Assembly: GCA_946566685.1 (NCBI GenBank)
Contig: CAMNXA010000001.1
Coordinates: 124,001 to 188,000 of the forward strand
Length of the DNA: 64,000 nt
Reading direction: 5' to 3'
Origin: an uncultured Lachnospiraceae bacterium
GTDB taxonomy: Bacteria > Bacillota > Clostridia > Lachnospirales > Lachnospiraceae
Positions 20,224 through 35,670 of this stretch are shown in pieces. The position numbers were made by a program, and so were the translations under genes. The number at the start of each line of letters is the position of its first letter. Within the stretch, counting starts at the first letter, position 1. The notes under the pieces were generated by a model, which worked only from the letters and a program-made list of their open reading frames with translations, ran no database searches and was not told where the DNA came from.

Positions 20224-22085
20224 AATGAATCATAGCCAATTAGTTTAAGTTCTGTATACCAAACCTCATTGTCATCCAACACGTAACAACTCAAATTTGG
20301 AAAATCCTTCTCTATTTTAGGGTTTCTATCATAGGTCACAATAATATCATTTGCTTGTACCAAATCCGGATAATCGTCCTCAATTCTATACTCATAAAAA
20401 TAGAACTGCAATACAGAAAAAACATACCAATTCTGATCTACTTTTCTGTCATCATATGCAAATATATGCCCAATATTTATATTTGCTTGTTCTAAAAGTT
20501 CTTTTTGTGCATAAGAAGCTAATACCATACTTGATACATCTTCCCGTATAGGTTCATTATAATTCACATTTGCATTTTGATATCCTATCAACAGCAGCAT
20601 AACAATCGGTGTAACTGCTAAACTTTTATATTTTGTTCCATAATATATTATACATGAAAAAAACATAAATATTGCGCAATACAAAATACACTTATAATAG
20701 AACTCAGCCGTGATACGTTCTCTTTTCTCTGATAAATAAGTAAAAAGGAATCCTGCTGCCGCCTCATTTTCCTTAATAATCGGGACAACCAAATGAATAA
20801 ATGAAAATATCATTATAATCCAACCGTAAATGGCTTTCCTAATGCAAGAACGATATTCCTTTTTTTCCAATAAATAAATCCCCGCTAAAATAAATGGCAT
20901 AGAAAACACATTCCAATATCTTACATAACAAAGAGCCTTATAGCAATACGCTTTTCCCATTTCATTTGTATTCCATGTAGAATACATCTCTGAAAACCAA
21001 CTAGAAACTAAAAACGCTGCAAAAGTTGCTCCAACAGCTAATCCAGATATTGTAATAATAATATTTAAATAAATATTTGCTTTTTTTGTTTCTTTAATAG
21101 CATCAAATATATACTTCATGATTGCAACAACAGCAGCTAAAAAAAGACCTCCTGTCAACAAAGATTGTACACTGATATGTCCAATCAACATGTCAAACCA
21201 AATATTCCATGCTTTTGCATCTATCATATTCCACTCAAACCCCAGACGGACTGATGCATTTATTAATTTTCCACCCGATAACCTCCATATACCATTTTGA
21301 TATAATTCAATAAATTTTCGTGCCAACAAAATAATCGGAATAACTATTATCGACCAAAATAATCTCTTCTTCCTTTTATAAATCAATATCCCTAAAACAG
21401 AAATAAATGATGCTATTATCATTGCAAGCGCTCTTGTATGCAGGAGTGAAGCATAAAAAACAGCAGCTATATATGCAAAAAAATACAACATATATTTATA
21501 CAAACATTCTATATGTTCTGCCATTTTACACACCAATATAATAATTATCCAAAGCATAATATCTAAAACAACATCATTTATAATATTTGTATCATTATTT
21601 GGATGCAAAGGAATTGTACATATTATTGCTACTTGCAGCAATATTGCTTTTGATGAAAAGCCCAAATAATATTTGCCAATATAATAGGAAATACTAAATA
21701 TCACACATTCTCTAAGGCAACGGGTAAAAACCAGAATGATTCGGTAAATCATTATAGGTGACAAATGTAACATAAATAATGGAGCAAATATTATATAATA
21801 GCCAAATCCATAATAACCAGATTTATCTATTACACCGCTCCAATCATATCCCGCCAATGATGCCGCTCCAACAATTGTCCCCAACTCGTCTGTTGTAGTA
21901 TGTAATGGGTAGGTCGTAAAAAGAGGCCAAGATAAAAATAATGAAAAAACAACCATCAAAAAGACTATTACAAATATCTCATGATGATTTATGAATTCTT
22001 CCATTTTTTTACCAAACATTTTCACTATATAAACTCCGTACAATTTTCTAAAAATTCCAATACCATAAAGATCATGATTAATCAT
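20217..22085 (-). CDS. GT-C-like polytopic membrane protein (same family as the protein at 31715-33574)
   Basis: The protein has 622 residues with about 12 helices. The first external loop reads TTDELGTIVGAASLAGYDWS and then YYGFGYYIIFAP. The protein encoded at 31715-33574 has the matching DEFG...ALGYDWS...YYSFGYGIILTP, so both belong to one family with a conserved acidic pair and YDWS motif in the catalytic-loop position. A C-terminal external domain of about 90 residues follows. A role as lipid-phosphate-sugar-dependent transferase is inferred. It overlaps the upstream GT4 gene by eight bases. Strongly AT-rich. Confidence 0.55.
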   Translation of the reverse strand: MINHDLYGIGIFRKLYGVYIVKMFGKKMEEFINHHEIFVIVFLMVVFSLFLSWPLFTTYPLHTTTDELGTIVGAASLAGYDWSGVIDKSGYYGFGYYIIFAPLFMLHLSPIMIYRIILVFTRCLRECVIFSISYYIGKYYLGFSSKAILLQVAIICTIPLHPNNDTNIINDVVLDIMLWIIIILVCKMAEHIECLYKYMLYFFAYIAAVFYASLLHTRALAMIIASFISVLGILIYKRKKRLFWSIIVIPIILLARKFIELYQNGIWRLSGGKLINASVRLGFEWNMIDAKAWNIWFDMLIGHISVQSLLTGGLFLAAVVAIMKYIFDAIKETKKANIYLNIIITISGLAVGATFAAFLVSSWFSEMYSTWNTNEMGKAYCYKALCYVRYWNVFSMPFILAGIYLLEKKEYRSCIRKAIYGWIIMIFSFIHLVVPIIKENEAAAGFLFTYLSEKRERITAEFYYKCILYCAIFMFFSCIIYYGTKYKSLAVTPIVMLLLIGYQNANVNYNEPIREDVSSMVLASYAQKELLEQANINIGHIFAYDDRKVDQNWYVFSVLQFYFYEYRIEDDYPDLVQANDIIVTYDRNPKIEKDFPNLSCYVLDDNEVWYTELKLIGYDSLW

Positions 22086-23193
22086 CCAAATATCGGACTA
22101 TCTCTTTGGCCATATTAATCGGCTGAAAATTCTTGCAAGCAGATTGCTGCCCGTATTTTGCAATTGTTTTATACTTCTCACGATTTTGAGCAATGTCATA
22201 AATACAAGCGCAAAATTCTTGTTTATCTCTAAATAACAAACCATTCTTCTGATTTGAGATAAGTTCACTAGTTCCTGCCGCATCTCTTCCCACAACCAAT
22301 AAACCCGAAATCATTCCTTCTACTGTCACCCTCCCGAATCCCTCTGACCTAGAATTCATCAATAAAATATCAGCTTGTTCTAGAGCCGTTAAAATGTTGT
22401 CCATATAAGGAATAATTGTAACATTGCTTTCAAGAGAATTTTGCAATATATATGTATTCAAGTCCTCCAGATAATCTTCTGAAGAATTACCCACTAATGT
22501 TAAATGACAATCGACAATTCTTCGCGCACTCTCAATAAATTCCACTGATTCCTTTGTTCCTTTTGCCTCACATAATGTTCCTATCTGAATCAGTTTAAGA
22601 GTTGATTGTTCTAAAATCTCATGATGTTCTATATAATAATCATCCTTACCTACACCGTTATAAATCACTTTATAGGATTTCAATTTATATAATAAAGTGT
22701 ACTTTTTTGCAATTGCCTGAGATATAAATACTACTTTAGTACTGGTTTCTAACAATTTCTTCATTCGTATCTTTTTTCTATACTCAAATCCAAAATCCTC
22801 TTCCATAAATTCTCTTATATAATACACATGCTTTATATTTAATTCTTTCGCCGTTCTTGCACCAATATCAACGGCCGAAGAGTTTGAAATAATATAGTCA
22901 TATTTTTTCTCTTTTAATCGTCTCTTTAATTTTTGTACCGCCAAAAAATTTACAGTTTCTTTTATTATTTCTTTCCACTTTATTTTCTTCCCAATGGTTC
23001 TGAAATCAGGGTAATAAAACAAACTTATATAAGCAATATCTCTGGCTTTCAAGGTTTTTTCCATTGTACTAGGATAAGGTAATAGCACTTCAATTTCCCA
23101 TTTATATATATCTTGCAAGATTTGTACTAACGTGAGCATCGAAATGCTTGAACCATTTTTACCACTTTCATGTGATACAAATAAAACTTTCAT
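22078..23193 (-). CDS. GT4 glycosyltransferase (GT-B fold)
   Basis: The protein has 371 residues from ATG 23193, which starts MKVLFVSHESGKNGSS as GT4 enzymes do and avoids overlap with the upstream gene. The C-terminal donor-binding domain has the retaining GT4 signature SRSEGFGRVTVEGMISG (E-x7-E, EGFGRVTVE) and an LIQIGTLCEAKG strand. It would transfer a sugar from an NDP donor in the cytoplasm. The sugar specificity cannot be read from sequence. Confidence 0.88.
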   Translation of the reverse strand: MKVLFVSHESGKNGSSISMLTLVQILQDIYKWEIEVLLPYPSTMEKTLKARDIAYISLFYYPDFRTIGKKIKWKEIIKETVNFLAVQKLKRRLKEKKYDYIISNSSAVDIGARTAKELNIKHVYYIREFMEEDFGFEYRKKIRMKKLLETSTKVVFISQAIAKKYTLLYKLKSYKVIYNGVGKDDYYIEHHEILEQSTLKLIQIGTLCEAKGTKESVEFIESARRIVDCHLTLVGNSSEDYLEDLNTYILQNSLESNVTIIPYMDNILTALEQADILLMNSRSEGFGRVTVEGMISGLLVVGRDAAGTSELISNQKNGLLFRDKQEFCACIYDIAQNREKYKTIAKYGQQSACKNFQPINMAKEIVRYLDD

Positions 23194-23207
23194 TTCCCTT
23201 ACATTTC

Positions 23208-24353
23208 CTAACATTCGTTCGCATACTTTTCCATTACATTCTTTATTGCTTCTAAATATCCAAATTTGTTTTTTTGATCCGGCTCTAAATAACCACCCTC
23301 TCCCCACTCATTCCACGCAAAAATGAAGATATAATCATTCTCATATTCTAATTTTGACTTTTTAACTAATTTGTCAAAATATAGCTCGAATTTTTCAGGC
23401 GATGCATTTTGATATATAGTCCCCCGATCTCCCTTTCGAGGCGTATTATCCCAATCAACAAATGCTCCTGGAATACATTTGTTACTTACTGGTTTATGCT
23501 GTAATATAGCATTCCACACCTTATCATAATCTTCTTTAAAATCCATATTGACAAATGCGACACTTGTCCAATCCCGCCATGGCAAAATTACATTTAAAAA
23601 TTTCTTCATTTCTTTAGACAATTTATTGCATAACAAAGTACCTTTTTTCTTTTTCCATTTACGCGCAAAAAGAGGTTGATATTCTATATGATATTTGAAA
23701 CGGGAATCACTGTTTCTAATGTCTTCAAGGTCAGAATATTGATTAGCAAATGCAATGCCACTAAAACCGGTTTCTATCGCCAATTCATTCCAATAATCTA
23801 GCATCTCATTTAAACAATGAATTATATCTGGTCTATAAATAACAAGTAACGGCTTATTATCTTCTTTTATATATCTATCATCTTTAAAAAATGGCAAAAA
23901 ATATTCAAAATGCTTTTTCCATTCACCTTTATCTCCATATTTTTGTTCAAAAATGATTTTTGCTTTTGAATCTACCCATTGTGTTGTCCAGTTTTCATTA
24001 GCCCAACATAAGCAAAAAGGTATATTTAAGTCTTTATTCTCTAAAAATTGTTCGACAGGTTTCTCTAATAATAAGTGTCCGCCAAACCAATAATGATATA
24101 TACAAAATCCATAAATACCATATTCTTTTGCCAATCCGATCTGCCATTTTTTTATATTATCATCTAACAGATTATAATAATTATCATTAAGAGGAATACG
24201 CGGTTGATTATGTCCAGCATATAATGCCTTTGCTCTTTTCACATTTACCCATTCTGTAAATCCTTTTCCCCACCACTTATTGTTTTCTTCAATTTCATGA
24301 TATTGAGGCAAATAGAATGCAATAATTTTGGGCTGTTTTCCAATCTCCGACAT
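23208..24353 (-). CDS. WbsX-like protein (GH99-like domain), polysaccharide biosynthesis
   Basis: The protein has 381 residues, a full-length WbsX domain. Diagnostic stretches are AFYLPQYHEIEENN, WWGKGFTEWVNV, CWANENWTTQWV and the C-terminal FAWNEWGEGGYLEPD. WbsX proteins resemble GH99 endo-mannosidases in fold but occur in O-antigen and capsule loci, where a transferase or trimming role is assumed; the biochemical role is poorly known. AAGGAG is ten bases before the ATG. It lies between two GT4 genes in the AT-rich block. Confidence 0.85.
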   Translation of the reverse strand: MSEIGKQPKIIAFYLPQYHEIEENNKWWGKGFTEWVNVKRAKALYAGHNQPRIPLNDNYYNLLDDNIKKWQIGLAKEYGIYGFCIYHYWFGGHLLLEKPVEQFLENKDLNIPFCLCWANENWTTQWVDSKAKIIFEQKYGDKGEWKKHFEYFLPFFKDDRYIKEDNKPLLVIYRPDIIHCLNEMLDYWNELAIETGFSGIAFANQYSDLEDIRNSDSRFKYHIEYQPLFARKWKKKKGTLLCNKLSKEMKKFLNVILPWRDWTSVAFVNMDFKEDYDKVWNAILQHKPVSNKCIPGAFVDWDNTPRKGDRGTIYQNASPEKFELYFDKLVKKSKLEYENDYIFIFAWNEWGEGGYLEPDQKNKFGYLEAIKNVMEKYANEC

Positions 24354-24379
24354 ACTATATAAACTCCTTTTTTGAAGGT

Positions 24380-25561
24380 TTACTCCAATAAGTCTTCTAT
24401 AAAATTCCTTTTTTCCAATTTCATTCGCTGATTCATTATAACCATAGCTTCCGCAACGCGTTTTTCATATAAACTTAATTTCTCATCATCACATAAATAA
24501 GCAATTTCTCTCGCAATTGCAGTATCATCTGTTGGATAGGCATAACGCACCGCAGATCCTATTACTTCTGGGATAGATGTGGTATTTGAAGCAACACATG
24601 TTTTTCCATATGTGGCAGCTTCCAAAACTGGCAAACCAAATCCTTCATTTTTTGACATATATAATACAAACTTACAATTTATGTATAAGCCTGCCAGTTC
24701 TTCGCTAGAGACATACCCCAATAATATTGCATCCCTTTTAATAATTTTTCTATCTAAATTGGGCAGCTTACATAAATTATTAAATACATTTCTATTTATC
24801 CCAGTTATTACAAGTTTCACCAAACTATCAGGATTCGCTTTTTTATATTCCGAAAATCCCAACAGTGCGTGGCTTAAATTCTTTAATGGTCTTGCACCAC
24901 TGACAAATAAAATATAATCGTCACAAAAATCCTTTGTAAAAACAGGCGTTTTATTTGCATCAAATGATTGATAATACCAAGATATTTTTACACGTTTGTC
25001 CTCCGCTAAAATATGTTGCATCGAATAATTAGAAACCGTATACACTTTATCTAAAGACTTTAGGCATTTTTTTAAAGCAGGCCTTTTTAGTATTTTTTTT
25101 ATAAGATTATCCACTATAAAACTTTTCAGTGGAAATAAAATCTTTTCAATTCCATTACTATAATATTTTTCTGTATAATCAACTGTATAATGTAAAAAAC
25201 GTACATCATGTAGCGTAGCGCAAATTTTTAATGTTGGATTCCGCTTTCGTATTTTTACAATATCTCTTAAATCCCTTAACCATCCTAGCATGGGATAATA
25301 TAAAATACTCTTCTCTTCAAAATCTGATATATTTATTATAGCTTTAACATTTTTCCAAATAAGATTATCGTATTTATACAACTCTGGCTCATTTTCATTT
25401 GATGGAACAAACCAGCTGGGACATAGAAGAATTATTTTTATTTGATCATTATCTAATTGCAACAACTCGCCAATAATATTTCTTGTGTAATTTCCTCCCC
25501 CATGATATTCCACACCGTCCTTTTGTGGTAATGCACTAAAAAAATCTATATATATGTTCAT
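24380..25561 (-). CDS. GT4 glycosyltransferase
   Basis: The protein has 393 residues. The N-terminal domain has the GGGNYTRNII loop near the start. The C-terminal domain has ILFVSGARPLKNLSHALLGF, and the donor-site motif KNEGFGLPVLEAATYGKTCV contains the paired glutamates of GT4 enzymes. The SIPEVIGSAVRY stretch is also typical. It likely adds one residue of the repeat unit. AT-rich and in line with its neighbours. Confidence 0.88.
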   Translation of the reverse strand: MNIYIDFFSALPQKDGVEYHGGGNYTRNIIGELLQLDNDQIKIILLCPSWFVPSNENEPELYKYDNLIWKNVKAIINISDFEEKSILYYPMLGWLRDLRDIVKIRKRNPTLKICATLHDVRFLHYTVDYTEKYYSNGIEKILFPLKSFIVDNLIKKILKRPALKKCLKSLDKVYTVSNYSMQHILAEDKRVKISWYYQSFDANKTPVFTKDFCDDYILFVSGARPLKNLSHALLGFSEYKKANPDSLVKLVITGINRNVFNNLCKLPNLDRKIIKRDAILLGYVSSEELAGLYINCKFVLYMSKNEGFGLPVLEAATYGKTCVASNTTSIPEVIGSAVRYAYPTDDTAIAREIAYLCDDEKLSLYEKRVAEAMVIMNQRMKLEKRNFIEDLLE

Positions 25562-25616
25562 GATTTCTGGTAATACCCCTCTCCTAGTCAGACAATTGTT
25601 CTATAGATTTTTCGGT

Positions 25617-26396
25617 TTATCCTGCTAACTTTTTTATTAGTCGTCTCACCCACCTCAATGGTAACAATGCCCTGCTTTGTAAAATATGAATATATTTTTC
25701 ATACCTTTCCCTCTCCGAATAAAATGTTACATCATAATAGTTTTCCAAATGTTCCATGTCCTGAAATCTATTTATAATATCCCTCTTCTCCGCTAATACA
25801 TAATATCTATTAGCATACTTTTTCCCTACATACAGATAACCACTTTCTGTTACTATATTTTCCCACGCAACATATCCAGGATTTTCTGCTGATGGTTCGT
25901 CTGACTCGAGACACAGTATCCAAGGCCGGTATTGTTTAAAATCCATGCCTTTAAGACATTGCTTTTCCCATCCTTCAACATCTATTTTTAAAAAATGAAT
26001 AGTTTGATTAGGCTGAATGTATCTATCACAAACTTCCTTCAAGGTCCATACCGGGATAATAGATGAGTACATACCCCTAACATGCTTGTTTGTTATATCA
26101 AAACTCGCTGATTCTCCTTTTCCATGCAATTTCATTTCTCCATGTACGTCACTAATTCCAATCATAAGGTTAATGTCATTGGGCCTGTCCATCGCATATT
26201 TTGGCGCATATAAAGATTGTGGCTCAATATTTATTCCACCCCCCCCCCTTACAGAAAAAAACTTCGTCACTGAATCAAATACCGGATCATTAGCTCCTAC
26301 GTCAATCCAAAAAATATTTGTTTCTGGCTTTAGTACATGATATAAAATGATGTCTTCCATCGTTTTTTCATGAGAAAAGCTTAATAAATATTCCAT
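25617..26396 (-). CDS. FkbM-family methyltransferase with an internal G10 tract
   Basis: The protein has 259 residues. The SAM-binding region is FWIDVGANDPVFDS, followed by RGGGGINIEPQ, KIDVEGWEKQCLKG (motif IV region) and ILCLESDEP. FkbM enzymes O-methylate sugars. In this family the fold position occupied here by RGGGG usually reads G-W-x-G before the INIEP strand. Here the coding strand carries ten consecutive G residues (26239-26248) encoding the glycine run. The frame is open as sequenced, but any change in tract length not a multiple of three would truncate the protein within about the first quarter. AGGAG is 11 bases before the ATG. Confidence 0.85.
   Translation of the reverse strand: MEYLLSFSHEKTMEDIILYHVLKPETNIFWIDVGANDPVFDSVTKFFSVRGGGGINIEPQSLYAPKYAMDRPNDINLMIGISDVHGEMKLHGKGESASFDITNKHVRGMYSSIIPVWTLKEVCDRYIQPNQTIHFLKIDVEGWEKQCLKGMDFKQYRPWILCLESDEPSAENPGYVAWENIVTESGYLYVGKKYANRYYVLAEKRDIINRFQDMEHLENYYDVTFYSERERYEKYIHILQSRALLPLRWVRRLIKKLAG
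26239..26248 (-). repeat. Homopolymer G10 tract inside the FkbM methyltransferase gene
   Basis: Ten consecutive C residues on the plus strand, G on the coding strand, at codons 50-54. It stands out in a gene that is otherwise about two-thirds A+T. Tracts of this length are prone to slipped-strand mispairing. Confidence 0.9.
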
Positions 26397-26423
26397 TTGC
26401 GTGTTGACTCCTTTTTTATATTT

Positions 26424-27509
26424 TTACTCTCTTGCACTGTCAATCAGATCAAACCATTGTTTTGCAGCTTTTTCCCAGCTATATACTGATAAAATCTTTT
26501 CTGCACTATCTATCCGCATGGATAATACTTCATTCAAGTCAATGTTACCTCTATCAGCATCTATGTAATACACGCTGTCTGCATATATTTCATGCATAAC
26601 AGGAATATCCGAAACAATTGCCTTGCTTCCGAGCGCTAATGCTTCTAACGGTGGTATTCCAAATCCCTCTATATAAGACGGGTATAACAACGCCTTACAA
26701 TTTTTCAATAAATATTTCATATAACTATCCGATATATGCCCAAGATATATAATATTTTTCTTTTCCTTCAACCCATCTACAATATTATCCGGAAGCCTTC
26801 CTGCAATCACAAAATATTCCTTCATAATTTCAGCTTCCTCTAAAACCCATTGTAAATTTTTATGAGGATTCAATTTTGCAATAAAAAAGAAATAGTTCTT
26901 TTCAATTATTCTTGAGTCTGCCTGTTCATCACGTTCCTCAATATTGTTAATATGTTCCCATCCATTACCAATAACGGCTACATTTTTTGATTTAAAATGA
27001 AAATTTCCACATAGTTCTGCTTTGGAAAATTCCGATACAGTAACAAGTTTTTGCGCAGTACATTCCTTAATAAAGATTTTGCTTTTATACCATATTTTAT
27101 CTATAAACTGTCCAAATTTTACTTTTATTCTTTCTTTAAAAGAAAAATGAAATGGATATTTGTAATTTTGCAATAAAATCGTGTCATGAATTGTCGTTAT
27201 AGAGTCTTGTACCCACTCAGCCCGATTAGTCAAATTTACATTTAATCCTTTTCTTTTTCTAACATAGGATCCATATACAAATAACCCCCAAATTGGACCT
27301 GACACCTCCCTTTTTCTCCCACGATCTTCCCATGTACATATCTCTATGTTTGATAGCCTTGGAACTTTGTTCGCATTACGCGGTACCACCAGTATCGCTT
27401 CTCCCGGCTTAAAATATTGATCTATTCTTTTTACTATTTCCATCGCGTATCTTGGTACTCCATAAATACGTTCTTTTGTGAAATAACCATTAATATACAC
27501 CGTTTTCAT
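26424..27509 (-). CDS. GT4 glycosyltransferase
   Basis: The protein has 361 residues. It starts with MKTVYINGYFTKERIYGVPR, has the mid-domain TVSEFSKAEL, and the donor-binding half contains FFIAKLNPHKNLQWVLEEA and PSYIEGFGIPPLEALALG, with the EGFGIPPLE signature of the Mtf/WbdA-type GT4 group often acting on mannose or rhamnose. AAGGA is nine bases before the ATG. The sugar donor is not known. Confidence 0.88.
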   Translation of the reverse strand: MKTVYINGYFTKERIYGVPRYAMEIVKRIDQYFKPGEAILVVPRNANKVPRLSNIEICTWEDRGRKREVSGPIWGLFVYGSYVRKRKGLNVNLTNRAEWVQDSITTIHDTILLQNYKYPFHFSFKERIKVKFGQFIDKIWYKSKIFIKECTAQKLVTVSEFSKAELCGNFHFKSKNVAVIGNGWEHINNIEERDEQADSRIIEKNYFFFIAKLNPHKNLQWVLEEAEIMKEYFVIAGRLPDNIVDGLKEKKNIIYLGHISDSYMKYLLKNCKALLYPSYIEGFGIPPLEALALGSKAIVSDIPVMHEIYADSVYYIDADRGNIDLNEVLSMRIDSAEKILSVYSWEKAAKQWFDLIDSARE

Positions 27510-27530
27510 TTTACTTTATCCTTACTTTCT

Positions 27531-28388
27531 CTATGTCCATTCTTTAATATCTCTCTTTGAATTCCCCCATTCGTTTCCATATGTCCGCCTCTTTACCGCA
27601 CAATATTTACAAAGTGGAATTGGCTGCGTCAGTTTTCTGATCACTTCTTCCGTGCTATAGTTTTGATAGATATCAATGCCGTCTTTTTCTGTAACCGGAA
27701 TATTTTTGTTAAAATAATTATTAAATCGATCCATGCATGCCGCATAAGAACAGGTATAAAGATGACCACGCGCCAGATTAATGCAATGTCCTGCCATATG
27801 ACAATGCGTAAATCCATATATTTCATCCTGACTCCCCGTCTCATCCAATGGCAATTTATACTGTTTCTTTTTAAGAAATTTTGTTCTTCCTTTATAAATA
27901 ATCTTAACCTTTCCTTTATGTACCTTCATAAGTTTTTTGATTTTCTCATAATCAAATTTCACCGGATACTTTGTGATTTCTATCACAATGTTATATCGAT
28001 AACATATATCCCAAAACTCTTGATCCATTTTATCCAATAGAAAGCCGTTCGTTATAATATAGATTGGCAGTTTTTTGTATGCTTGTCTGGCGATAACAAG
28101 CATCTCATTGATGTTGGCATGTAATAGCGGCTCTCCACCTAAAATATAAAAGCGTTTAACACAATCATCCGGCAATAATGCACTCGTTCTCCTGACATCT
28201 CTTCTGAAATCCTCCACATCAATAAACCATTTTTCTGCAATAGGCGAAAAGTGTGTACAGCCTTTACAATTTAAATTACAATGACTAACTAAATCTATCT
28301 CAATAGAATCTATCTGGGTGACCTTTTTCTTCAAATTTTTAGGCAGCCAGCTTTTATATGGTCTTTGAATATAATTAATAATCTTCAT
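27531..28388 (-). CDS. Radical SAM enzyme in a glycan cluster
   Basis: The protein has 285 residues from ATG 28388, chosen because GTAGGA lies directly upstream; a GTG at 28409 overlaps the preceding stop. The [4Fe-4S] motif CNLNCKGC (C37, C41, C44) is preceded by IEIDLVSH. YILGGEPLLH is the GGE motif and IITNGFLL another standard strand. Further cysteines (HCHMAGHCINLARG, TCSYAAC and PLCKYCAVKRRTYG) may bind an auxiliary cluster, as in SPASM/twitch proteins. Its position between GT genes suggests a radical modification of a sugar or lipid-linked glycan. The substrate is unknown. Confidence 0.8.
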   Translation of the reverse strand: MKIINYIQRPYKSWLPKNLKKKVTQIDSIEIDLVSHCNLNCKGCTHFSPIAEKWFIDVEDFRRDVRRTSALLPDDCVKRFYILGGEPLLHANINEMLVIARQAYKKLPIYIITNGFLLDKMDQEFWDICYRYNIVIEITKYPVKFDYEKIKKLMKVHKGKVKIIYKGRTKFLKKKQYKLPLDETGSQDEIYGFTHCHMAGHCINLARGHLYTCSYAACMDRFNNYFNKNIPVTEKDGIDIYQNYSTEEVIRKLTQPIPLCKYCAVKRRTYGNEWGNSKRDIKEWT

Positions 28389-28405
28389 AATTTGTCCTAC
28401 CCTCT

Positions 28406-29410
28406 TCACAATTTATAAAACACTCTCACAAACCATTTTGCACAATTCCAATGAATCATTCTCATAAAAACTGTAACGGCCAGTTTTTGTTTGGTTTCAA
28501 TATCAGTTTTCTTCATTATAGATAAATAGGGATTGCACATATATGCAGGGCAATAGCTTTCAAGAATCCTCTTTGCGTAATCGCACAATTCATCCAGCAT
28601 CTTAACATCGCTTTTTCTGTCTGATAACTTATAATATCGATGTTTCCTATTTGCTTCTAATATGAAATATGTAAAAAAACTCATTAACGTATATTCAAAG
28701 ATATCATAATCATCTGGCTTATAATCAATCACATACTGAACGGATTCCTCTAATTCTTTATATGGCACATCGGTCCGTAAAATCTTTCTTGTTGTTATAC
28801 TATCCAAATGAACCAGCTGAAAATATCCCTCATATTGCAAAAAATCTATATGATCAGTCAAAAAAAAAGCTGCCAGGTTAAACGGGTTATCTTCATACGT
28901 TTTTCCTTCCGGAAATCTCAAATTATGCATTTTCAAATAATCAAGCCGATACATTTTCCCATGCATATTCAAATGTCTAAGAATACACTTTCCCTGTTTA
29001 TCCAAATGATACCGCACATGAGAAATAATCTGACCATCTTCCGTAATTCGATATTGCCCACTGCATACGACATCCGATTGATTTTTTTCGGCCTTCGTTA
29101 CTAAATTGCAAAGATATTCTGAATCTAAATAATCATCACTATCTAAAAAAACAACGTATTTGCAATGCTCTAATCTATCCATTCCATAATTTCTTGCACT
29201 GGATAAGCCACCATTTTCTTTATTGTAATAGCTGATAAAAGAGTATTTACTTCTATATTCTTTAATAATGTCCTCGGTATGATCAAAGCTTCCATCATTA
29301 ACAATGACAACTTCGTAATCATCAAAATTTTGATGCACAACGGATTCTAAACATTTACGTATATACTTTTCCGCATTGTATGCAGGAATTATTATCGTCA
29401 CAAGGCTCAT
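28406..29410 (-). CDS. GT2 glycosyltransferase
   Basis: The protein has 334 residues. The GT-A core is intact: VTIIIPAYNAEKYIRKCLES, VNDGSFDHTEDII, ENGGLSSARNYGMD and FLDSDDYLD (DxD-type metal site). The C-terminal 120 residues are helical and carry no membrane span. It is a cytoplasmic inverting transferase of the repeat-unit assembly type. GAGGA is nine bases before the ATG. It is the first gene after the Rpn cassette and the right end of the AT-rich block. Confidence 0.9.
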   Translation of the reverse strand: MSLVTIIIPAYNAEKYIRKCLESVVHQNFDDYEVVIVNDGSFDHTEDIIKEYRSKYSFISYYNKENGGLSSARNYGMDRLEHCKYVVFLDSDDYLDSEYLCNLVTKAEKNQSDVVCSGQYRITEDGQIISHVRYHLDKQGKCILRHLNMHGKMYRLDYLKMHNLRFPEGKTYEDNPFNLAAFFLTDHIDFLQYEGYFQLVHLDSITTRKILRTDVPYKELEESVQYVIDYKPDDYDIFEYTLMSFFTYFILEANRKHRYYKLSDRKSDVKMLDELCDYAKRILESYCPAYMCNPYLSIMKKTDIETKQKLAVTVFMRMIHWNCAKWFVRVFYKL

Positions 29411-29610: not shown

Positions 29611-30528
29611 CTACCAGTTCTGCCTAATCTTTTCCTCCGCTTCCGCCTCGCTCAGACCAAACTGTCTGGCCAATTGCTGGCAGGTAATCTCTCTGGAAAC
29701 AGATGCTTCTTTCATCATTCTAATCGCAAAGACAATGCCTTCCTCTATTCCTTCCTCTCTGGCTACCCGCCGGGTCTCCTGCACATCATATGCTTCAAAA
29801 TTTGCAAATAGTTCTCCCATATGCCGCTCCTTTACTTTTCCTGAAAATGCTTCTGCCTCCTCACGTGGCACATTAATCTTCACAAGCAATATTTCCACTA
29901 TCTGGGCTATGATATCCAGCAGGTATTCCGGTGATTTCGATGCAATGCCATTTAAGTACTCTGCACTGACATCTTTGCTGAGCTCTGCAAAGTCAGCTGC
30001 TTTCTGTAATTTGCTGATCATCATTACGATTGACAGTTCATCTTTCTTTTGCATGATCTCCGCATTGCTATAATCTTTTAATTGTACCAGAATGCATTTA
30101 AAGTTTGGTATATAGTCTTCAAAAACAGCACTTAAATAAACTCTGTTTTCCAATTCGATACCGTCATTCCAGTCAGCTGTCCCATCATAATAAACAATTG
30201 GAAGTACAGGAGGGTACTTAAAATCCTTTGTCTTGCTGATACCCTTATGTTCTCTTTCCTGCTCTTTCTCATAACTTTCCCAGATATAAACCATATAGCG
30301 TAATACCTGCATGATTACATTATAATCCACCCGGGATTTATGTTCAATAAGAGAAATCAAATAGAACGGTGTTTCGTTTCCTTTTAGGCGAATCTTTTTT
30401 ACAACATCCGAGTTCCTCTCCTCTGTGAACATATAGACATACTGTTTGGAAACATCTTCAATATCTTCCGGCTTCACATCTTTCAGCAGTGGTATATTCA
30501 CATACCCCTGTAGGAACTGGGAACACAT
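29611..30528 (-). CDS. Rpn family recombination-promoting nuclease / putative transposase
   Basis: The protein has 305 residues of the PD-(D/E)XK Rpn/YhgA-like family. D41 (ERNSDVVKK) and the ExK of YLISLIEHKSRVDYN (E62, K64) form the nuclease site. LRYMVYIWE and PPVLPIVYYDG are further family motifs. The C-terminus (ETRRVAREEGIEEGI then a helix-turn-helix-like QLARQFGLSEAEAEEKI) matches the usual end of Lachnospiraceae members. The protein starts at MCSQFLQGY, so roughly 20 N-terminal residues common in relatives seem to be absent, although no start lies further upstream. GGGAAGG lies directly before the ATG. Flanking inverted repeats support mobility. Confidence 0.8.
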   Translation of the reverse strand: MCSQFLQGYVNIPLLKDVKPEDIEDVSKQYVYMFTEERNSDVVKKIRLKGNETPFYLISLIEHKSRVDYNVIMQVLRYMVYIWESYEKEQEREHKGISKTKDFKYPPVLPIVYYDGTADWNDGIELENRVYLSAVFEDYIPNFKCILVQLKDYSNAEIMQKKDELSIVMMISKLQKAADFAELSKDVSAEYLNGIASKSPEYLLDIIAQIVEILLVKINVPREEAEAFSGKVKERHMGELFANFEAYDVQETRRVAREEGIEEGIVFAIRMMKEASVSREITCQQLARQFGLSEAEAEEKIRQNW

Positions 30529-30588: not shown

Positions 30589-31638
30589 TTACATCTCAGC
30601 CTGCAATTCTTCCTGCACCGGCATTTCCTGATGTATCTTTTTTCCCACCACCTGATAGGTCTTTATTACTTCCTTCTCCATTTGCATCTGCATATAAATC
30701 GCATCATACTCGGTCTTTCTCGCATGATACTGCGTATCCTGAAGGAGTTTCCTGTTGGCCGCGATCACGTCAGCCAAAAGCCCTATCATAAATGTCAAAA
30801 AACCTATGATAATCAGCGTACATGCCAGGATAAGAGACTGCACATGTCCGCCGGATTGTCCCACTGCCATATAAAACAAAAATCGAAAACCAATTACCAG
30901 CCCGATCACCACCGGTGTGATTGCCAGATAGGTAAAAAACTTGAGCGGCTTATACATCATATACGCCCGAAGGATTGTAAGCATACTCTTTTTCACATAT
31001 CCCCAGATGCTGTGAAAAAGTCTTGATGGCCGAAGTTCCGCGTTTGTCCGCACCGGTACGCTTGTGAGCGCTATCTTCTCTCTGCCTGCCTGTACGATGG
31101 TCTCCAGCGTATAGGTATAATCATTGACCACATTGATACGCATGGCCGCTTCCCTGCTGAACGCCCTGAACCCGCTGGGCGCATCAGGTATGCTTGTATT
31201 GGAAGCCTTTCGTACCACCCAGCTTCCAAAATGCTGTAATTTCTTTTTGATAAAGGAAAAATGTTCGGTCTGGTCGATCGGCCTTGCCCCAATCACCATA
31301 TCTGCCTGTCCGTCCAGAATCGGTTGTATTAATTTCTGGATATCCTCGGCACAGTACTGGTTATCTGCATCCGTATTGACGATGATATCGGCCCCATTTC
31401 TAAGGCAGCCATCCAGTCCCGCCATAAACCCTTTGGCAAGCCCCTTATTCTGCTTAAAGTTGACCACATGTTGTACGCCCCATTTTCTTGCGACTTCTAC
31501 CGTATTATCCTGACTGCCGTCATTGATGATCAGATATTCTATTTCATCTATCCCTTCCAATTCTTTCGGAAGATCGTTAAGTGCGATCTCCAGCGTATCC
31601 GCTTCGTTATAACAGGGAATCTGGATAAGCAGTTTCAT
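30589..31638 (-). CDS. GT2 glycosyltransferase, polyprenyl-phosphate sugar synthase type (DPM1/GtrB-like)
   Basis: The protein has 349 residues from ATG 31638, preceded by GGAGG. The core is MKLLIQIPCYNEADTLEI, INDGSQDNT, VNTDADNQY (metal site), and PSGFRAFSREAA in the acceptor part. Two helices follow (about 235-260 and 275-300), then a C-terminal cytoplasmic tail. It resembles the DPM1-like branch and probably makes an undecaprenyl-phosphate monosaccharide used by one of the GT-C proteins, most simply the one encoded immediately upstream. Confidence 0.85.
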   Translation of the reverse strand: MKLLIQIPCYNEADTLEIALNDLPKELEGIDEIEYLIINDGSQDNTVEVARKWGVQHVVNFKQNKGLAKGFMAGLDGCLRNGADIIVNTDADNQYCAEDIQKLIQPILDGQADMVIGARPIDQTEHFSFIKKKLQHFGSWVVRKASNTSIPDAPSGFRAFSREAAMRINVVNDYTYTLETIVQAGREKIALTSVPVRTNAELRPSRLFHSIWGYVKKSMLTILRAYMMYKPLKFFTYLAITPVVIGLVIGFRFLFYMAVGQSGGHVQSLILACTLIIIGFLTFMIGLLADVIAANRKLLQDTQYHARKTEYDAIYMQMQMEKEVIKTYQVVGKKIHQEMPVQEELQAEM

Positions 31639-31714
31639 TATGTATACCTCCACTTCTCACTTTCGGAATAAGCCATTTTGTTATGCTGTTTTCATGGCAT
31701 AACGTCTCTGTTTT

Positions 31715-33574
31715 TTATTCCACCATAAACAATACAAACGATTGACTTTCACTGCATTTTTGATATCTGTCTTCCAGTACGTCCAGGCAGGTAAAATCCT
31801 GATCCACAACCAGAAAGCCTTCCGTTGGCAAAATACTTTCCAGTTCTTTCCATTCTGCTGTTTTATCTTCGTCCGTCCTATTGTTCTGCGCAGTTTCGCA
31901 TTTTAGATACTCCGTATCCTGCAAGCTGACAATCTCTATCTCTCTTTCTCTCACGGCAAACTGTATCAGATCGATATGAGGAAATCCCCCTCCATACAAA
32001 TAGGTGACCGGCATCTCATAATCCTCGATATATTGCGCGATCTTCAGATTATAATAATTGGTGTCATTAAAAGATTTGGTATATTTTTCTCCCAGAGTAA
32101 GCGCTAATACCGTTTCCATCAGCACAAACACGCCTAATAAATATAGGTATTTCTTAAATCGCATTCCTGCATATATGCCAAACATCACGCCCGCCATGAG
32201 CAGTAGTCCCAGGATAAAGCCTTTCGGGAACTCTGTCCTGATATCGTAGTTCCAATCATCTGACAGATAACTGATTCCAGGTGCAAAATAGCCCTGCATG
32301 ACAGTCAGGCCGCTTTGCAGCGCGCTTTTAAATGTAATTACAAACATCATTGCTGCCAGTACTGCACTCCCTGTAAATACGCGCAGTTTATGCTTCATCT
32401 CACCAAAAGAGAGAAGGCCAATTCCTATAAAGACCGGCAAAATATGTTCGTTGTATCTTCCGTAAACAAACCCGTCCAGTCTGCCGGGAGACATCATGGC
32501 AATTGCCGTGATCATAAATTGCCCTGTCATAGAGAGCAGGCAGAAAAAATAGAAATAATTTTTGTTATCATCATCTTTCGACATATTTTCCTCTTTTTGC
32601 TTTGGAAAATAACCTTGCAGCAGCCGCCCTGTCTTTTTGAGGCAGCTATATACGGCCGGAACAAGCAAGCCGAAAGATGCCATGATCAGATAATATAATT
32701 TCCCTGCACTGCTTTTCAAAAACTCCTTCATTCCATGAACTGTCAGCAGCGCTTTCAGCGTTTCCATGCGCCCCGTATAGTCATTCACAGAAAGTAGGCT
32801 GGCATCTGCTGCCATATATACGGTATCCATGACTTGTGCTTTTATCCACAAACCGCACATACCGCCTGCCGCCAATAAGACAATGACTGCTGCCAGGCTC
32901 TTACGGGCAGAAGGCTCCTTCCATGCATACATAAGGAGTGTCACAATCGCGGCGATGCATATGCCTGCCGTACGCATATGCACAAAGTATATATAAAGAA
33001 GTGCCAGCGACAACAACACTGCACTTATCCTATTCGGTTTCTCAATAAACAAAAGCAGCCGATAACAGAGGAACACATACAGAAACATAAGCAACGCTTC
33101 CGCTAATGTCATCTGCACATAAAATGACCACGGCGGATAGAAGACTGCCAATCCTACCGCCACTATAATCTGCATTTTTCTTTCCTGCTGCCCTTCTGCC
33201 GGATACAGTCTTTTATAAATTCCCCACAGTATTCCAACAGCGCTGCATTGCAATAGCATATTGACGGTAAGCGCTGCGCGGTATGCCATGATACTGTCCT
33301 TAAAGATCCACAAAACAGGCGTAAGAATGATCCCGTATCCAAAAGAATAGTAGGAACCAAGCGCTGTCGCGGCAGACCAGTCATATCCCAATGCCTGCGC
33401 TGCACTCGCCCAGTAGCCAAACTCATCCGGATAAATGGAAAAACCGCATACTTTATAAATATGAAATTGAAAAATGCAAAAAATAAGCAGCACAAAGAGC
33501 AATAAATACCGGAAGAAGAATCTTTTTCTTCCTCCGGTTATTGCCTGCATATCTTTAATACTTAACGATTGCAT
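31715..33574 (-). CDS. GT-C-like polytopic membrane glycosyltransferase
   Basis: About 619 residues with 12-13 helices. The first external loop carries YPDEFGYWASAAQALGYDWS then YYSFGYGIILTP, matching the protein at 20217-22085. VHMRTAGICIAA and MMSPGRLDGFVYGRYNEHI are other conserved-looking loops. A C-terminal external domain starts at about residue 500. ATG 33574 has AGGG five bases upstream and overlaps the preceding gene by 20 bases; ATG 33550 is an alternative lying just after that gene's stop. It forms the second gene of the operon that starts at the inverton and is followed by a GT2 able to make its donor. Confidence 0.6.
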   Translation of the reverse strand: MQSLSIKDMQAITGGRKRFFFRYLLLFVLLIFCIFQFHIYKVCGFSIYPDEFGYWASAAQALGYDWSAATALGSYYSFGYGIILTPVLWIFKDSIMAYRAALTVNMLLQCSAVGILWGIYKRLYPAEGQQERKMQIIVAVGLAVFYPPWSFYVQMTLAEALLMFLYVFLCYRLLLFIEKPNRISAVLLSLALLYIYFVHMRTAGICIAAIVTLLMYAWKEPSARKSLAAVIVLLAAGGMCGLWIKAQVMDTVYMAADASLLSVNDYTGRMETLKALLTVHGMKEFLKSSAGKLYYLIMASFGLLVPAVYSCLKKTGRLLQGYFPKQKEENMSKDDDNKNYFYFFCLLSMTGQFMITAIAMMSPGRLDGFVYGRYNEHILPVFIGIGLLSFGEMKHKLRVFTGSAVLAAMMFVITFKSALQSGLTVMQGYFAPGISYLSDDWNYDIRTEFPKGFILGLLLMAGVMFGIYAGMRFKKYLYLLGVFVLMETVLALTLGEKYTKSFNDTNYYNLKIAQYIEDYEMPVTYLYGGGFPHIDLIQFAVREREIEIVSLQDTEYLKCETAQNNRTDEDKTAEWKELESILPTEGFLVVDQDFTCLDVLEDRYQKCSESQSFVLFMVE

Positions 33575-34229
33575 ATGCACCCTGACCACCTGTTGTATCA
33601 AAAGTGATCGTATTAGGATTGGTGTCTGTATCCTGAAGGACACTTACTGCTCCACCCGGACGTACGCAGATTACTGCATATGTTTTACCATCCTGTGCGA
33701 AGGATTTCGGAATACCAACTTTCACGGAGATCTTCTCACCTTCCTGTGAAAGCAGACTGAACTGACCGCCAGCCTTCTTACCGATTTCGATGTTGATGCA
33801 GGGACCCACTGTAGCGCCTATAGCTGCTGCTGCATTGTCGATCACTGCCTTTGCAAGACTGCTCTTCTTGACATCCATATTGGAAAATCTTGCGTAAGGA
33901 ACTTCCCCGGCTGTGAGACCATAGCTTCCTGCAATCCCTGCAAGGCTGCTCGTGATCGCTGTTCCGTTTACACTGGTTGCGATATAAACACCCTGCACTG
34001 TGGACTTTGTGCCTGCAACCGTATTGGTTACAGGAATCTCGGCAATGCTGCTCACAGAAGACTCGCCGCCGTCACTAATGCTCTCACTAATGATCTCAAT
34101 GACTTTGTCTTCTGATTTAGAAGAGGAACCACCTGAGCCACCACTTGCAAGTACGCTCATGGACGGTGCTGCAACGAGAGCAACTGTCAAAGCGCTTGCC
34201 ATCATTCTTTGAATGAATTTTGTTTTCAT
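33555..34229 (-). CDS. Secreted protein of unknown function, first gene behind the invertible promoter
   Basis: The protein has 224 residues. A clear signal peptide (cleavage near VLASG, about residues 28-30) is followed by a Ser/Gly-rich linker and a predominantly beta domain ending TTGGQGAYAIVKY, which resembles the end of immunoglobulin-like or 'TYALV'-type domains of Clostridial surface proteins. There is no membrane anchor, LPXTG or lipobox. AGGAGG lies eight bases before the ATG, one of the best ribosome binding sites in the window. Only 26 bases separate the ATG from the left inverted repeat of the inverton, so expression should follow the orientation of that segment. Function is not recognised. 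Confidence 0.75.
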   Translation of the reverse strand: MKTKFIQRMMASALTVALVAAPSMSVLASGGSGGSSSKSEDKVIEIISESISDGGESSVSSIAEIPVTNTVAGTKSTVQGVYIATSVNGTAITSSLAGIAGSYGLTAGEVPYARFSNMDVKKSSLAKAVIDNAAAAIGATVGPCINIEIGKKAGGQFSLLSQEGEKISVKVGIPKSFAQDGKTYAVICVRPGGAVSVLQDTDTNPNTITFDTTGGQGAYAIVKY

Positions 34230-34255
34230 TCTTCTACCTCCTTATAATTTTCTTG

Positions 34256-34285
34256 AAATTTCATAAAATAAAATATATTACGAAA
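34256..34285 (-). repeat. Left inverted repeat of inverton (IR-L)
   Basis: Thirty bases identical to the reverse complement of 35533-35562. AT-rich, with one CG step near the inner end. It lies 26 bases upstream of the ATG of the secreted protein gene. Confidence 0.93.
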
Positions 34286-34306
34286 CAGGCTCTCCAGCGT
34301 CTGTTT
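34283..34306 (-). terminator. Hairpin after the recombinase gene
   Basis: AAACAG (34283-34288) pairs with CTGTTT (34301-34306), extended by a G-U and a G-C pair. Leftward transcription is followed by the T-rich inverted repeat. It could terminate recombinase transcripts before the polysaccharide operon in the present orientation. The stem is modest. Confidence 0.4.
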
Positions 34307-34344
34307 ATGCATATCAGCAGCACCCATACCAAATTTTTGACGGC

Positions 34345-35451
34345 CTAAAGATTCCCATTTAGCCGTTCCATCAAAATACGTTTTTGTCTGATAGATGTGT
34401 GTACATACAGCTGCAATGTGATCCGTATATCGGAATGTCCCATAATCTCACACAAACTTTTTGCATCGAATCCCAACTCTACACATCTGCTTGCGAAACA
34501 ATGTCTCAGGGCATGAAAGCGAAAACTTTGAAACCCATTTTCTTTCAAAAAACGTTTAAAGCGATATTGCAGTGTACGCGGTTCACAATAGGCAACTCTT
34601 TTTCCGGGAACAACATATTCTTCCGGCGAACTCTTTTTGCATTTCAGAAATCGGATCAGATTGCTGGGTAATGGGATATCTCTCACGGCATTTCTTGTTT
34701 TGGGCTCCATAATATAGATTTTTGTCTCAGAACTTCGACCAGAATATGTTCGTATCCTCTGCATCGTCTTATTGACATGAATCATGCCGCCATCCAGATC
34801 CACATCTTTCCAGCGCAGAGCGCATAATTCTCCGATTCTGATTCCGGAATTAATGGCAAGCAATATACCTGCCTGCTCCGGCACATCTTTTATATATAGC
34901 ATTTTTTCTACTTCTTTTATAGTTTCTATGGAGGGGAGTTCTTTGATCTCAGATTTGTTTTCGTATTTTCCTGTAAACGATAGGTTCGGTATCACATAAT
35001 GGACATTCTCATGTTGATTCTCATAATATTTGAGCGCCTGCCGAAACAGTCCAAGCATATTTTTAATGTATTTAGAAGATAGGCCGTCATCTTTTTTGGT
35101 CAGGATGAATTTTTGCACTCTGTCAGCACTCAACATTTCCGGATGCATCTGTGCCCAATATGGCAGCAGATGGTTTTCAACAATCTTTCGATAATTTGCA
35201 TAAGTTGATGGTTTCCAATCTTTTCTTTTCTGTTCCAGCCAGAAATACAGGATAATCCCTATGGTGTCTCCCTTTCCTCTGATATCGCCATATTTCTCTA
35301 TATATTTCTGCATTTTTCCCTTTACTTCGCTATAGTTCTTGCCATAAACAGAATGATATTTTCGCTTTTTATCCTCATCATACCCCAGGATAACCCTTCC
35401 TTCCCATCTGCCGTCTTTGCGTTTATAGATGTTTCTTCCTCTTCTTGGCAC
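34345..35451 (-). CDS. Tyrosine site-specific recombinase (integrase family), probable DNA invertase
   Basis: The protein has 368 residues. An arm-binding domain (NIYKRKDGRWEGRVILGY, residues 7-24) and SAM-like core-binding domain (about 60-155) precede the catalytic domain with R205 (SGIRIGELCALRW), K251 (EPKTRNAVRDIP), H313-x-x-R316 (HALRHCF), H339 (MGHSD) and nucleophile Y349 (QLYVHT). All active-site residues are present. GGAGG is eight bases before the GTG start. No excisionase, relaxase or other mobile-element gene is nearby, so this is not an obvious integrative element. The flanking perfect inverted repeats suggest its substrate is its own segment. Confidence 0.92.
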   Translation of the reverse strand: MPRRGRNIYKRKDGRWEGRVILGYDEDKKRKYHSVYGKNYSEVKGKMQKYIEKYGDIRGKGDTIGIILYFWLEQKRKDWKPSTYANYRKIVENHLLPYWAQMHPEMLSADRVQKFILTKKDDGLSSKYIKNMLGLFRQALKYYENQHENVHYVIPNLSFTGKYENKSEIKELPSIETIKEVEKMLYIKDVPEQAGILLAINSGIRIGELCALRWKDVDLDGGMIHVNKTMQRIRTYSGRSSETKIYIMEPKTRNAVRDIPLPSNLIRFLKCKKSSPEEYVVPGKRVAYCEPRTLQYRFKRFLKENGFQSFRFHALRHCFASRCVELGFDAKSLCEIMGHSDIRITLQLYVHTSIRQKRILMERLNGNL

Positions 35452-35491
35452 TGTAATTTCCTCCGATCCACTGTAAATTTTTAAAAAAACA

Positions 35492-35519
35492 TTGACATAA
35501 CCTGAATTTGCGTTACAAT
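35492..35519 (+). promoter_or_regulatory. Strong sigma-A promoter inside the inverton, reading rightward out of it
   Basis: TTGACA (35492-35497), 16-base spacer, TACAAT (35514-35519). The start point would fall near 35526, just before the right inverted repeat, so the repeat becomes part of the leader. As drawn it points away from the recombinase gene and into a terminator. Inverted, it would give a leader of about 63 nt to the ATG at 34229. Confidence 0.8.
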
Positions 35520-35532
35520 TAAAAAAGGTAAA

Positions 35533-35562
35533 TTTCGTAATATATTTTATTTTATGAAATTT
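35533..35562 (+). repeat. Right inverted repeat of inverton (IR-R)
   Basis: Perfect inverted copy of 34256-34285. Seven bases or so downstream of the predicted start point of the outward promoter. Confidence 0.93.
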
Positions 35563-35633
35563 TTAATTTGTTTGAAAGAATATGGGGTTTCTTCCGAATG
35601 TTTATAAGATAAGAATCGTTAGATTATAAGAGT

Positions 35634-35670
35634 CTAAAAAAGGATCTTGGGAAAGTTTCTCAAGATCCTT
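35634..35670 (-). terminator. Strong intrinsic terminator between the sialyltransferase-like gene and the inverton
   Basis: A ten-base perfect stem (35640-35649 with 35661-35670), extendable inward, is followed on the minus strand by six T residues. It should end transcripts of the 35761-36837 gene. On the plus strand the same hairpin is followed by ACCTGTTTTA, so it may also stop the inverton promoter in its present orientation. The rest of the 309-base gap (35452-35760) holds the inverton end and nothing else recognised. Confidence 0.75.

Follow-up and report, generated by a model that had tools for sequence, protein, structure and literature searches.

A candidate self-contained promoter inverton with its own tyrosine recombinase at the head of a glycan operon in an uncultured Lachnospiraceae bacterium

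The H-segment of Salmonella carries an outward promoter, and Hin is a serine recombinase that uses hix/enhancer sites and Fis. Hin has been named as a recombinase within the invertible segment (PMC5903667), and the PsrA/hsdS inverton of Streptococcus pneumoniae is described as having a tyrosine recombinase gene among its four genes (PMC12324116). In the hCom2 gut strains, inverton group 139 comprises 33 invertons, 32 of them from class Clostridia, and is statistically linked to a tyrosine-type recombinase group, invertase group 35; its example from Clostridium sp. D5 has 26-bp arms and, at 257 bp, is too small for the recombinase gene (PMC11892184). In the RecV/cwpV switch of Clostridioides difficile, recV is located away from cwpV and the promoter lies beyond the invertible segment; the OFF RNA has been proposed to form a terminator (PMC2784873).

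Here, we followed up a preliminary description of a 1.3-kb segment (34256-35562) in a 64,000-nucleotide stretch of DNA (the window) from an uncultured gut-type Lachnospiraceae bacterium. Judging from its sequence and that of its relatives, the segment is likely to be an autonomous promoter inverton that switches the operon starting at 34229. The preliminary description had reported perfect 30-bp inverted repeats at the two ends, and these held up: a repeat search found the arms complementary at 30 of 30 positions, and when 34200-35620 was searched against the whole 3.9-Mb genome (E ≤ 0.001), the matches were the segment itself and its two arms, with no further copy. Under a null of local base shuffling (five block-shuffles for each of the 66 related loci introduced below, 330 in all), the best flanking inverted repeat scored 14, compared to 30 at the window locus, which together with the uniqueness in the genome rules out a chance repeat. 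The claim that nothing else of an integrative element is present also stood, as far as repeats and ORFs of at least 80 aa are concerned. None of the direct repeats in 32-38 kb frames the element (short or weak two-copy matches among the best 20 of 22 families, the top one of the families listed being 26 nt at 73%), and the ORFs of at least 80 aa inside the segment are the recombinase gene and an antisense overlap at 34384-34671. Since the segment is framed by inverted arms alone and has no cargo among ORFs of this size, we rejected an integrative element (ICE, prophage, or IME). The features of the locus are collected in Table 1.

Table 1. Features in and around the candidate inverton, in window coordinates.
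Feature	Coordinates	Strand	Basis and remarks
Presumed remainder of the glycan operon: GT2, radical SAM, GT1, FkbM methyltransferase, GT1, WbsX, GT1	22078..29410	-	Gene order similar to that on contig C5 of the same genome
Glycosyltransferase family 2	30589..31653	-	Third gene of the conserved block
Membrane-type protein, start uncertain	31715..33643	-	Second gene of the conserved block; no Pfam match
224-aa protein, signal-peptide-like start (by eye and crude script)	33555..34229	-	First gene of the presumed controlled operon
Leader with AGGAGG ribosome-binding site	34230..34255	-	Separates the left arm from the ATG of gene 34229; 25/26 columns invariant
Left inverted-repeat arm	34256..34285	.	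Putative recombination site: two 11-bp half-sites and 5-bp centre AAAAT; 29/30 columns invariant in three species
Tyrosine recombinase, 368 aa	34345..35451	-	Pfam, active-site residues, alignments, dN/dS; within the invertible segment
Predicted outward sigma-A-type promoter, TTGACA-N16-TACAAT	35492..35519	+	11/12 consensus positions; z 5.0 vs shuffles
Right inverted-repeat arm	35533..35562	.	Exact inverted copy of the left arm; 28/30 columns invariant
Hairpin, 14 pairs	35640..35670	.	Outside the right arm; 30/31 columns invariant

The recombinase is full-length, matches Pfam Phage_integrase (E 2.7e-25) plus Phage_int_SAM_3, and possesses R205, K251, H313, R316, H339, and Y349, which we take to be the catalytic residues of tyrosine recombinases. 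All six are invariant in the three closest members aligned, and the window recombinase was also aligned to a solved Int chain; the Pfam match and the alignment confirm the earlier claim of a full-length recombinase with six active-site residues. By the NG86 method, dN/dS is about 0.13 against L051 (record CAMXIF010000002.1; dN 0.029, dS 0.224) and about 0.07 against L052 (record CAMNSD010000007.1; dN 0.062, dS 0.860). A XerC/XerD chromosome-dimer recombinase was rejected at NCBIfam scores of 70 bits (cut-off 335) and 60 bits (cut-off 330), as was a Hin-type serine inversion system, since Phage_integrase places the protein in the tyrosine family. We infer that the recombinase in the segment could act on the arms around it.

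The predicted promoter sits between the 5' end of the recombinase gene and the right arm and points right, away from gene 34229; neither it nor the hairpin outside the right arm appeared in the preliminary description. A segment bounded by short inverted repeats, with a conserved outward promoter predicted at one end, has the make-up of a promoter inverton. The hairpin has its better T run on the minus strand, and the one that a transcript from the outward promoter would meet is poor, so the hairpin may end the transcript of the right-hand GT52 gene, besides or instead of the outward one. With the segment as it now stands, no promoter match was found in the 140 bases ahead of the ATG of gene 34229. 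A search for terminator-like sites from the recombinase stop to the left arm also found none, so an OFF operon could still receive some transcription by read-through. We then counted invariant alignment columns across three species (the window, L051, and L052) and found that the arms, the promoter, and the leader of gene 34229 are invariant at 93-97%, compared to 53-78% for their non-coding neighbours. The stretch from promoter to arm (35492-35532) keeps 39 of 41 columns, and the drifting stretches are those from right arm to hairpin (41/77), from recombinase stop to left arm (33/59), and from promoter to recombinase start (31/40). The kept pieces, the hairpin apart, are those that the ON state would join.

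We propose that the recombinase would bind the 11-bp half-sites in both arms (family consensus TTTCGYARAWT) and that strand exchange across the central spacer would invert all 1.3 kb and the recombinase gene with it. In the present orientation, the outward promoter would fire right towards the hairpin and the operon at 34229 would be OFF. When the segment is flipped in silico, 69 bp separate the end of the -10 box from the ATG of gene 34229, and the transcript path runs through promoter, arm, and AGGAGG leader to the ATG; inversion in the cell would turn the operon ON by this geometry. We infer that the window copy inverts today, with its recombinase acting on its arms and expression following the promoter, and the inverton mechanism is very probably right for the family.

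The element had been placed at the head of a polysaccharide cluster, which agrees with our finding that gene 34229 heads a presumed glycan operon left of the element. From gene 34229 onwards, the window genes are secreted protein, membrane protein, GT2, Rpn-like, GT2, radical SAM, GT1, FkbM, GT1, WbsX, and GT1; the 224-aa secreted-type protein matched no Pfam or NCBIfam family, and the Rpn/YhgA-like gene within the operon (29611-30528) is of transposase type. The switch may reach no further than the first gene, since a hairpin (33508-33538) lies where the second one starts. In G013 and G008, whose recombinases are 83% and 67% identical to that of the window, the secreted-protein, membrane-protein, and GT2 genes hold the same left-side place, and the right-side gene is GT52 in the window, MATE-like in G013, and nitroreductase-like in G008 (the latter two named by eye). 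Since the right-hand genes differ, the controlled cluster would be the minus-strand one on the left, and control of the right-hand genes was dropped. A second cluster in the same genome, on contig C5, has a similar order, with a secreted protein (59% identical), a membrane protein, and GT2, continuing with radical SAM-, glycosyltransferase-, and FkbM-like genes and with an Xre-like gene in front (names by eye). No arm pair was found at this cluster, and one degenerate half-site pair lies partnerless ahead of its first gene. The lone site scores 31.5, equal to the level of a window arm, so single matches at this score can be chance in AT-rich leaders.

The window element is not a stand-alone oddity, since 38 of 77 genomes from the genus, the window's own included, carry related recombinases (51 matches at E ≤ 1e-45). 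From these matches, the partial G069 was left out, and G036, G046, and G053 were added from a separate search; among 22 further loci, L051-L054 duplicate G092C2, G084C7, G013, and G008, and L068-L072 are partial. This gave 66 loci, 65 of them distinct, as G046 and L058 are one contig. Arms were sought over a span of 2.5 kb upstream and called at a score of at least 16 (maximum in 330 shuffles, 14). Flanking inverted repeats were found at 49 of the 66 loci, 45 with short arms of the window type and 4 with long repeats of another nature; at least 4 of the 17 loci without arms at this score are close to a contig end. Family elements are mostly 1.3-1.6 kb. Longer ones of about 2.3 kb occur in G083 (L108) and G087 (L120), with about 1.1 kb from arm to recombinase, as also in G003 (L038), where a Uma2-like gene (named by eye) lies upstream of the recombinase. 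The much longer inverted repeats beside related recombinases measure 155/166 in L034/L058, 99/99 in L057, and 299/309 in L064, and in L034 each of the two repeat copies falls within an open frame, so what is exchanged there might be the ends of genes and not promoters.

Spacer and promoter counts exclude the long-repeat loci G046, L057, L058, and L064 (n = 45). The consensus half-site, inverted around a 5-bp centre, is common to most of the 45 arm pairs. We found that the two arms have the same centre in 43 of 45 pairs, with 32 different centres among the 45 loci, and the two unmatched centres (G029 and L059) look like register errors of the half-site score. Centres change in lock-step within pairs, which fits strand exchange across the centre; their non-palindromy is uninformative, since a sequence of odd length cannot be palindromic. 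With a home-made scoring, an outward promoter at z > 2 was found in 29 of 45 loci and an inward one in 1 of 45, and the common family form, TTGACA-17-TATAAT, lies about 60 bp inside the arm in many loci. The outward promoter is weak in three of nine loci with the same target as the window (G007, z 0.9; G021, 0.5; G061C11, 0.5), a scoring that left out G085C23. As a control, we took the tyrosine recombinases of four genomes, 30 of 66 matches being examined as loci, and ran the arm test on the 27 from outside the family. Arms were present at 2 of them, both among the 18 whose flanks were long enough, compared to 47 of 66 family loci. Both positives (G000:C46, L190; G013:C5, L194) are small invertase-like recombinases of 193 residues between near-exact 30-bp arms with ATGCAAC-like ends, beside flagellin-like genes (named by eye), and by sequence they are another type of self-contained inverton.

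Class labels were assigned by hand, with class B denoting a TnpB-like gene or an ~850-aa protein family beside the element. In classes C and D (e.g. L096 and L101), the first genes abutting the invertons encode a CpsB/CapC capsule protein, or a LytR-CpsA-Psr protein followed by a sortase-like one (23.5 bits, below the Pfam cut-off of 26.6; one protein of each kind was scanned). The preliminary description had looked to relatives for the opposite orientation. Within the family, both orientations occur in class B. In G000C4 (the other family copy of the genome that holds the window) and in G086C7, each compared to G003, both flanks are shared and the element core is reversed; G003, in which one site and no arm pair was found, was used for orientation only. 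The element is also reversed relative to the target-side flank in G000C4/G002, G083/G002, G000C4/G064, and G091/G036. In four of the six comparisons (G000C4/G002, G083/G002, G091/G036, and G086C7/G003), the homologous flank extends into the arm and breaks off at its inner edge or close to it, so that these alignments document arm-bounded inversion in other family members. On a quick recombinase tree with two long branches joined, the 21 labelled class-B loci have 15 promoters pointing away from the target and 6 towards it, with at least 6 orientation changes. Outward neighbours at a distance of up to 300 bp were counted at the 49 armed loci: 27 loci have one on the recombinase 3' side only, 6 on the 5' side only, 9 on both sides, and 7 have none.

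The window's target class differs in this respect from class B. In all nine counted loci, the window's four nearest relatives among them, the recombinase 3' end is beside the target (OFF), and a tenth, partial locus outside the count (G069) looks to have the same orientation. The window subfamily therefore gives no orientation polymorphism, and a single orientation in assemblies could come either from a mostly-OFF population or from a locked switch. Of the earlier proposal that the segment inverts and controls the operon, the self-contained inverton with its own recombinase at the operon head agrees with the promoter geometry, the conservation footprint, the family promoter, and the inversion in other members, and the opposite orientation of the window copy was found in none of the nine loci. 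As a separate observation, the recombinase match in G036 (L024/L048) has in-frame stops (three TGA and one TAA) between exact 29-bp arms, with an outward promoter on the class-B gene side, and G036 is perhaps a switch locked ON.

TnpB-like proteins (L036:7309-8613, L140:4378-5745, and 14 others of class B) are encoded first or second beside invertons. The two that were scanned scored 51 and 57 bits for NCBIfam guided_TnpB, below the cut-off of 100, and the L036 protein matched Pfam Cas12f1-like_TNB above cut-off. None of the 16 aligned proteins has acidic residues at the positions that we presume to be those of the RuvC triad, so they look nuclease-dead and are reminiscent of TldR. In Flavonifractor plautii, inversions beside hin near csrA-tldR loci are mentioned in the available part of one report (PMC13418256). 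Outside the window, the same genome also holds a recombinase-less copy of 440 bp with the same half-site type (G000:C1:249788-250227; L140:5789-6228), which has the centre AAGAT in both arms and, by eye, TTGACA-N17-TATAAT inside, pointing away from the TnpB-like gene. It has no ORF of at least 70 aa and is presumably flipped in trans. More broadly, the loci could form a family of self-encoding promoter cassettes in Lachnospiraceae, each with a tyrosine recombinase, an outward promoter, and shared half-sites, in which the centre serves as a per-locus address that keeps the switches of one genome apart. Such cassettes would have been recruited repeatedly to surface-glycan and nuclease-dead TnpB-like operons, with recombinase-less derivatives flipped in trans; we hold this wider picture to be evenly poised between right and wrong.

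The single orientation of the window's target class bears most directly on an alternative in which the element is a relic of the inverton family, locked or very rarely flipping, fixed one way in its clade, and with its promoter serving something else. All nine counted same-target loci, including all five of the window's clade, fit this reading. However, a mostly-OFF population would also yield one orientation in every assembly, and a relic fits poorly with the low dN/dS of the recombinase, with arms that are kept while the adjoining DNA drifts, and with both arms being altered together in G013 and G008, which makes it unlikely in our view. The operon might instead be ON in the present orientation, by read-through from the recombinase gene, which is upstream and co-directional. 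The lack of a terminator-like site between the two agrees with this, as do the 27 of 49 armed loci whose outward neighbour lies on the recombinase 3' side only. On the other hand, strong outward promoters were found in 29 of 45 loci, compared to a single locus with an inward promoter at z > 2, and the stretch that such a transcript would cross from recombinase to arm drifts (33 of 59 columns invariant); we regard read-through as improbable.

Still less credible is a small integrative or transposing element with terminal inverted repeats, in which the recombinase serves movement rather than inversion. The genes next to family cassettes do vary from genome to genome, and the same secreted-protein target has three separate recombinase lineages as neighbours, as movement would predict, but none of the direct repeats listed frames the element, the leader of the target is conserved along with the arm, and the reversals have their flanks in place, so we give this reading hardly any weight. 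An inverton whose promoter would be turned towards the operon remains the reading that we prefer.

Such an element would be a compact, portable switch. Its recombinase gene would change direction together with the promoter, so that orientation feedback on recombinase expression becomes testable. It would also make phase-variable surface operons predictable from sequence in many uncultured Lachnospiraceae, and the varied centres are natural site pairs from which to learn spacer rules in tyrosine recombinases. Among the matches listed in the open-licence literature, we found none that describes a tyrosine recombinase residing in a compact promoter cassette. Inverton group 139 with invertase group 35 is perhaps the same family as the window's, a likeness drawn from its concentration in Clostridia, its link to a tyrosine-type recombinase group, and the 26-bp arms of its example (PMC11892184).

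A recombinase that flips its own gene had been singled out as a compact design. The self-contained design stands, but it is not unprecedented, and the window copy belongs to a large family. Like the window element, the Hin/H-segment of Salmonella has its recombinase gene inside the segment that is inverted, as far as the available text describes it (PMC5903667); unlike Hin, which is of the serine family, the window element uses a tyrosine recombinase and has 11-bp half-sites in its arms. PsrA likewise is a tyrosine recombinase with its gene within its own inverton, but that system rearranges the hsdS coding sequence via three repeat pairs, and the available part of the account describes no promoter switch (PMC12324116). 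RecV/cwpV, also from Clostridia, resembles the window case in having a tyrosine recombinase and an inverting switch that governs a surface protein; its promoter is outside the segment and its recombinase gene remote, whereas the window element carries both inside (PMC2784873). Altogether, a recombinase inside its own segment is known from Hin and PsrA, and what appears to be new is the compact promoter cassette recruited to many surface loci.
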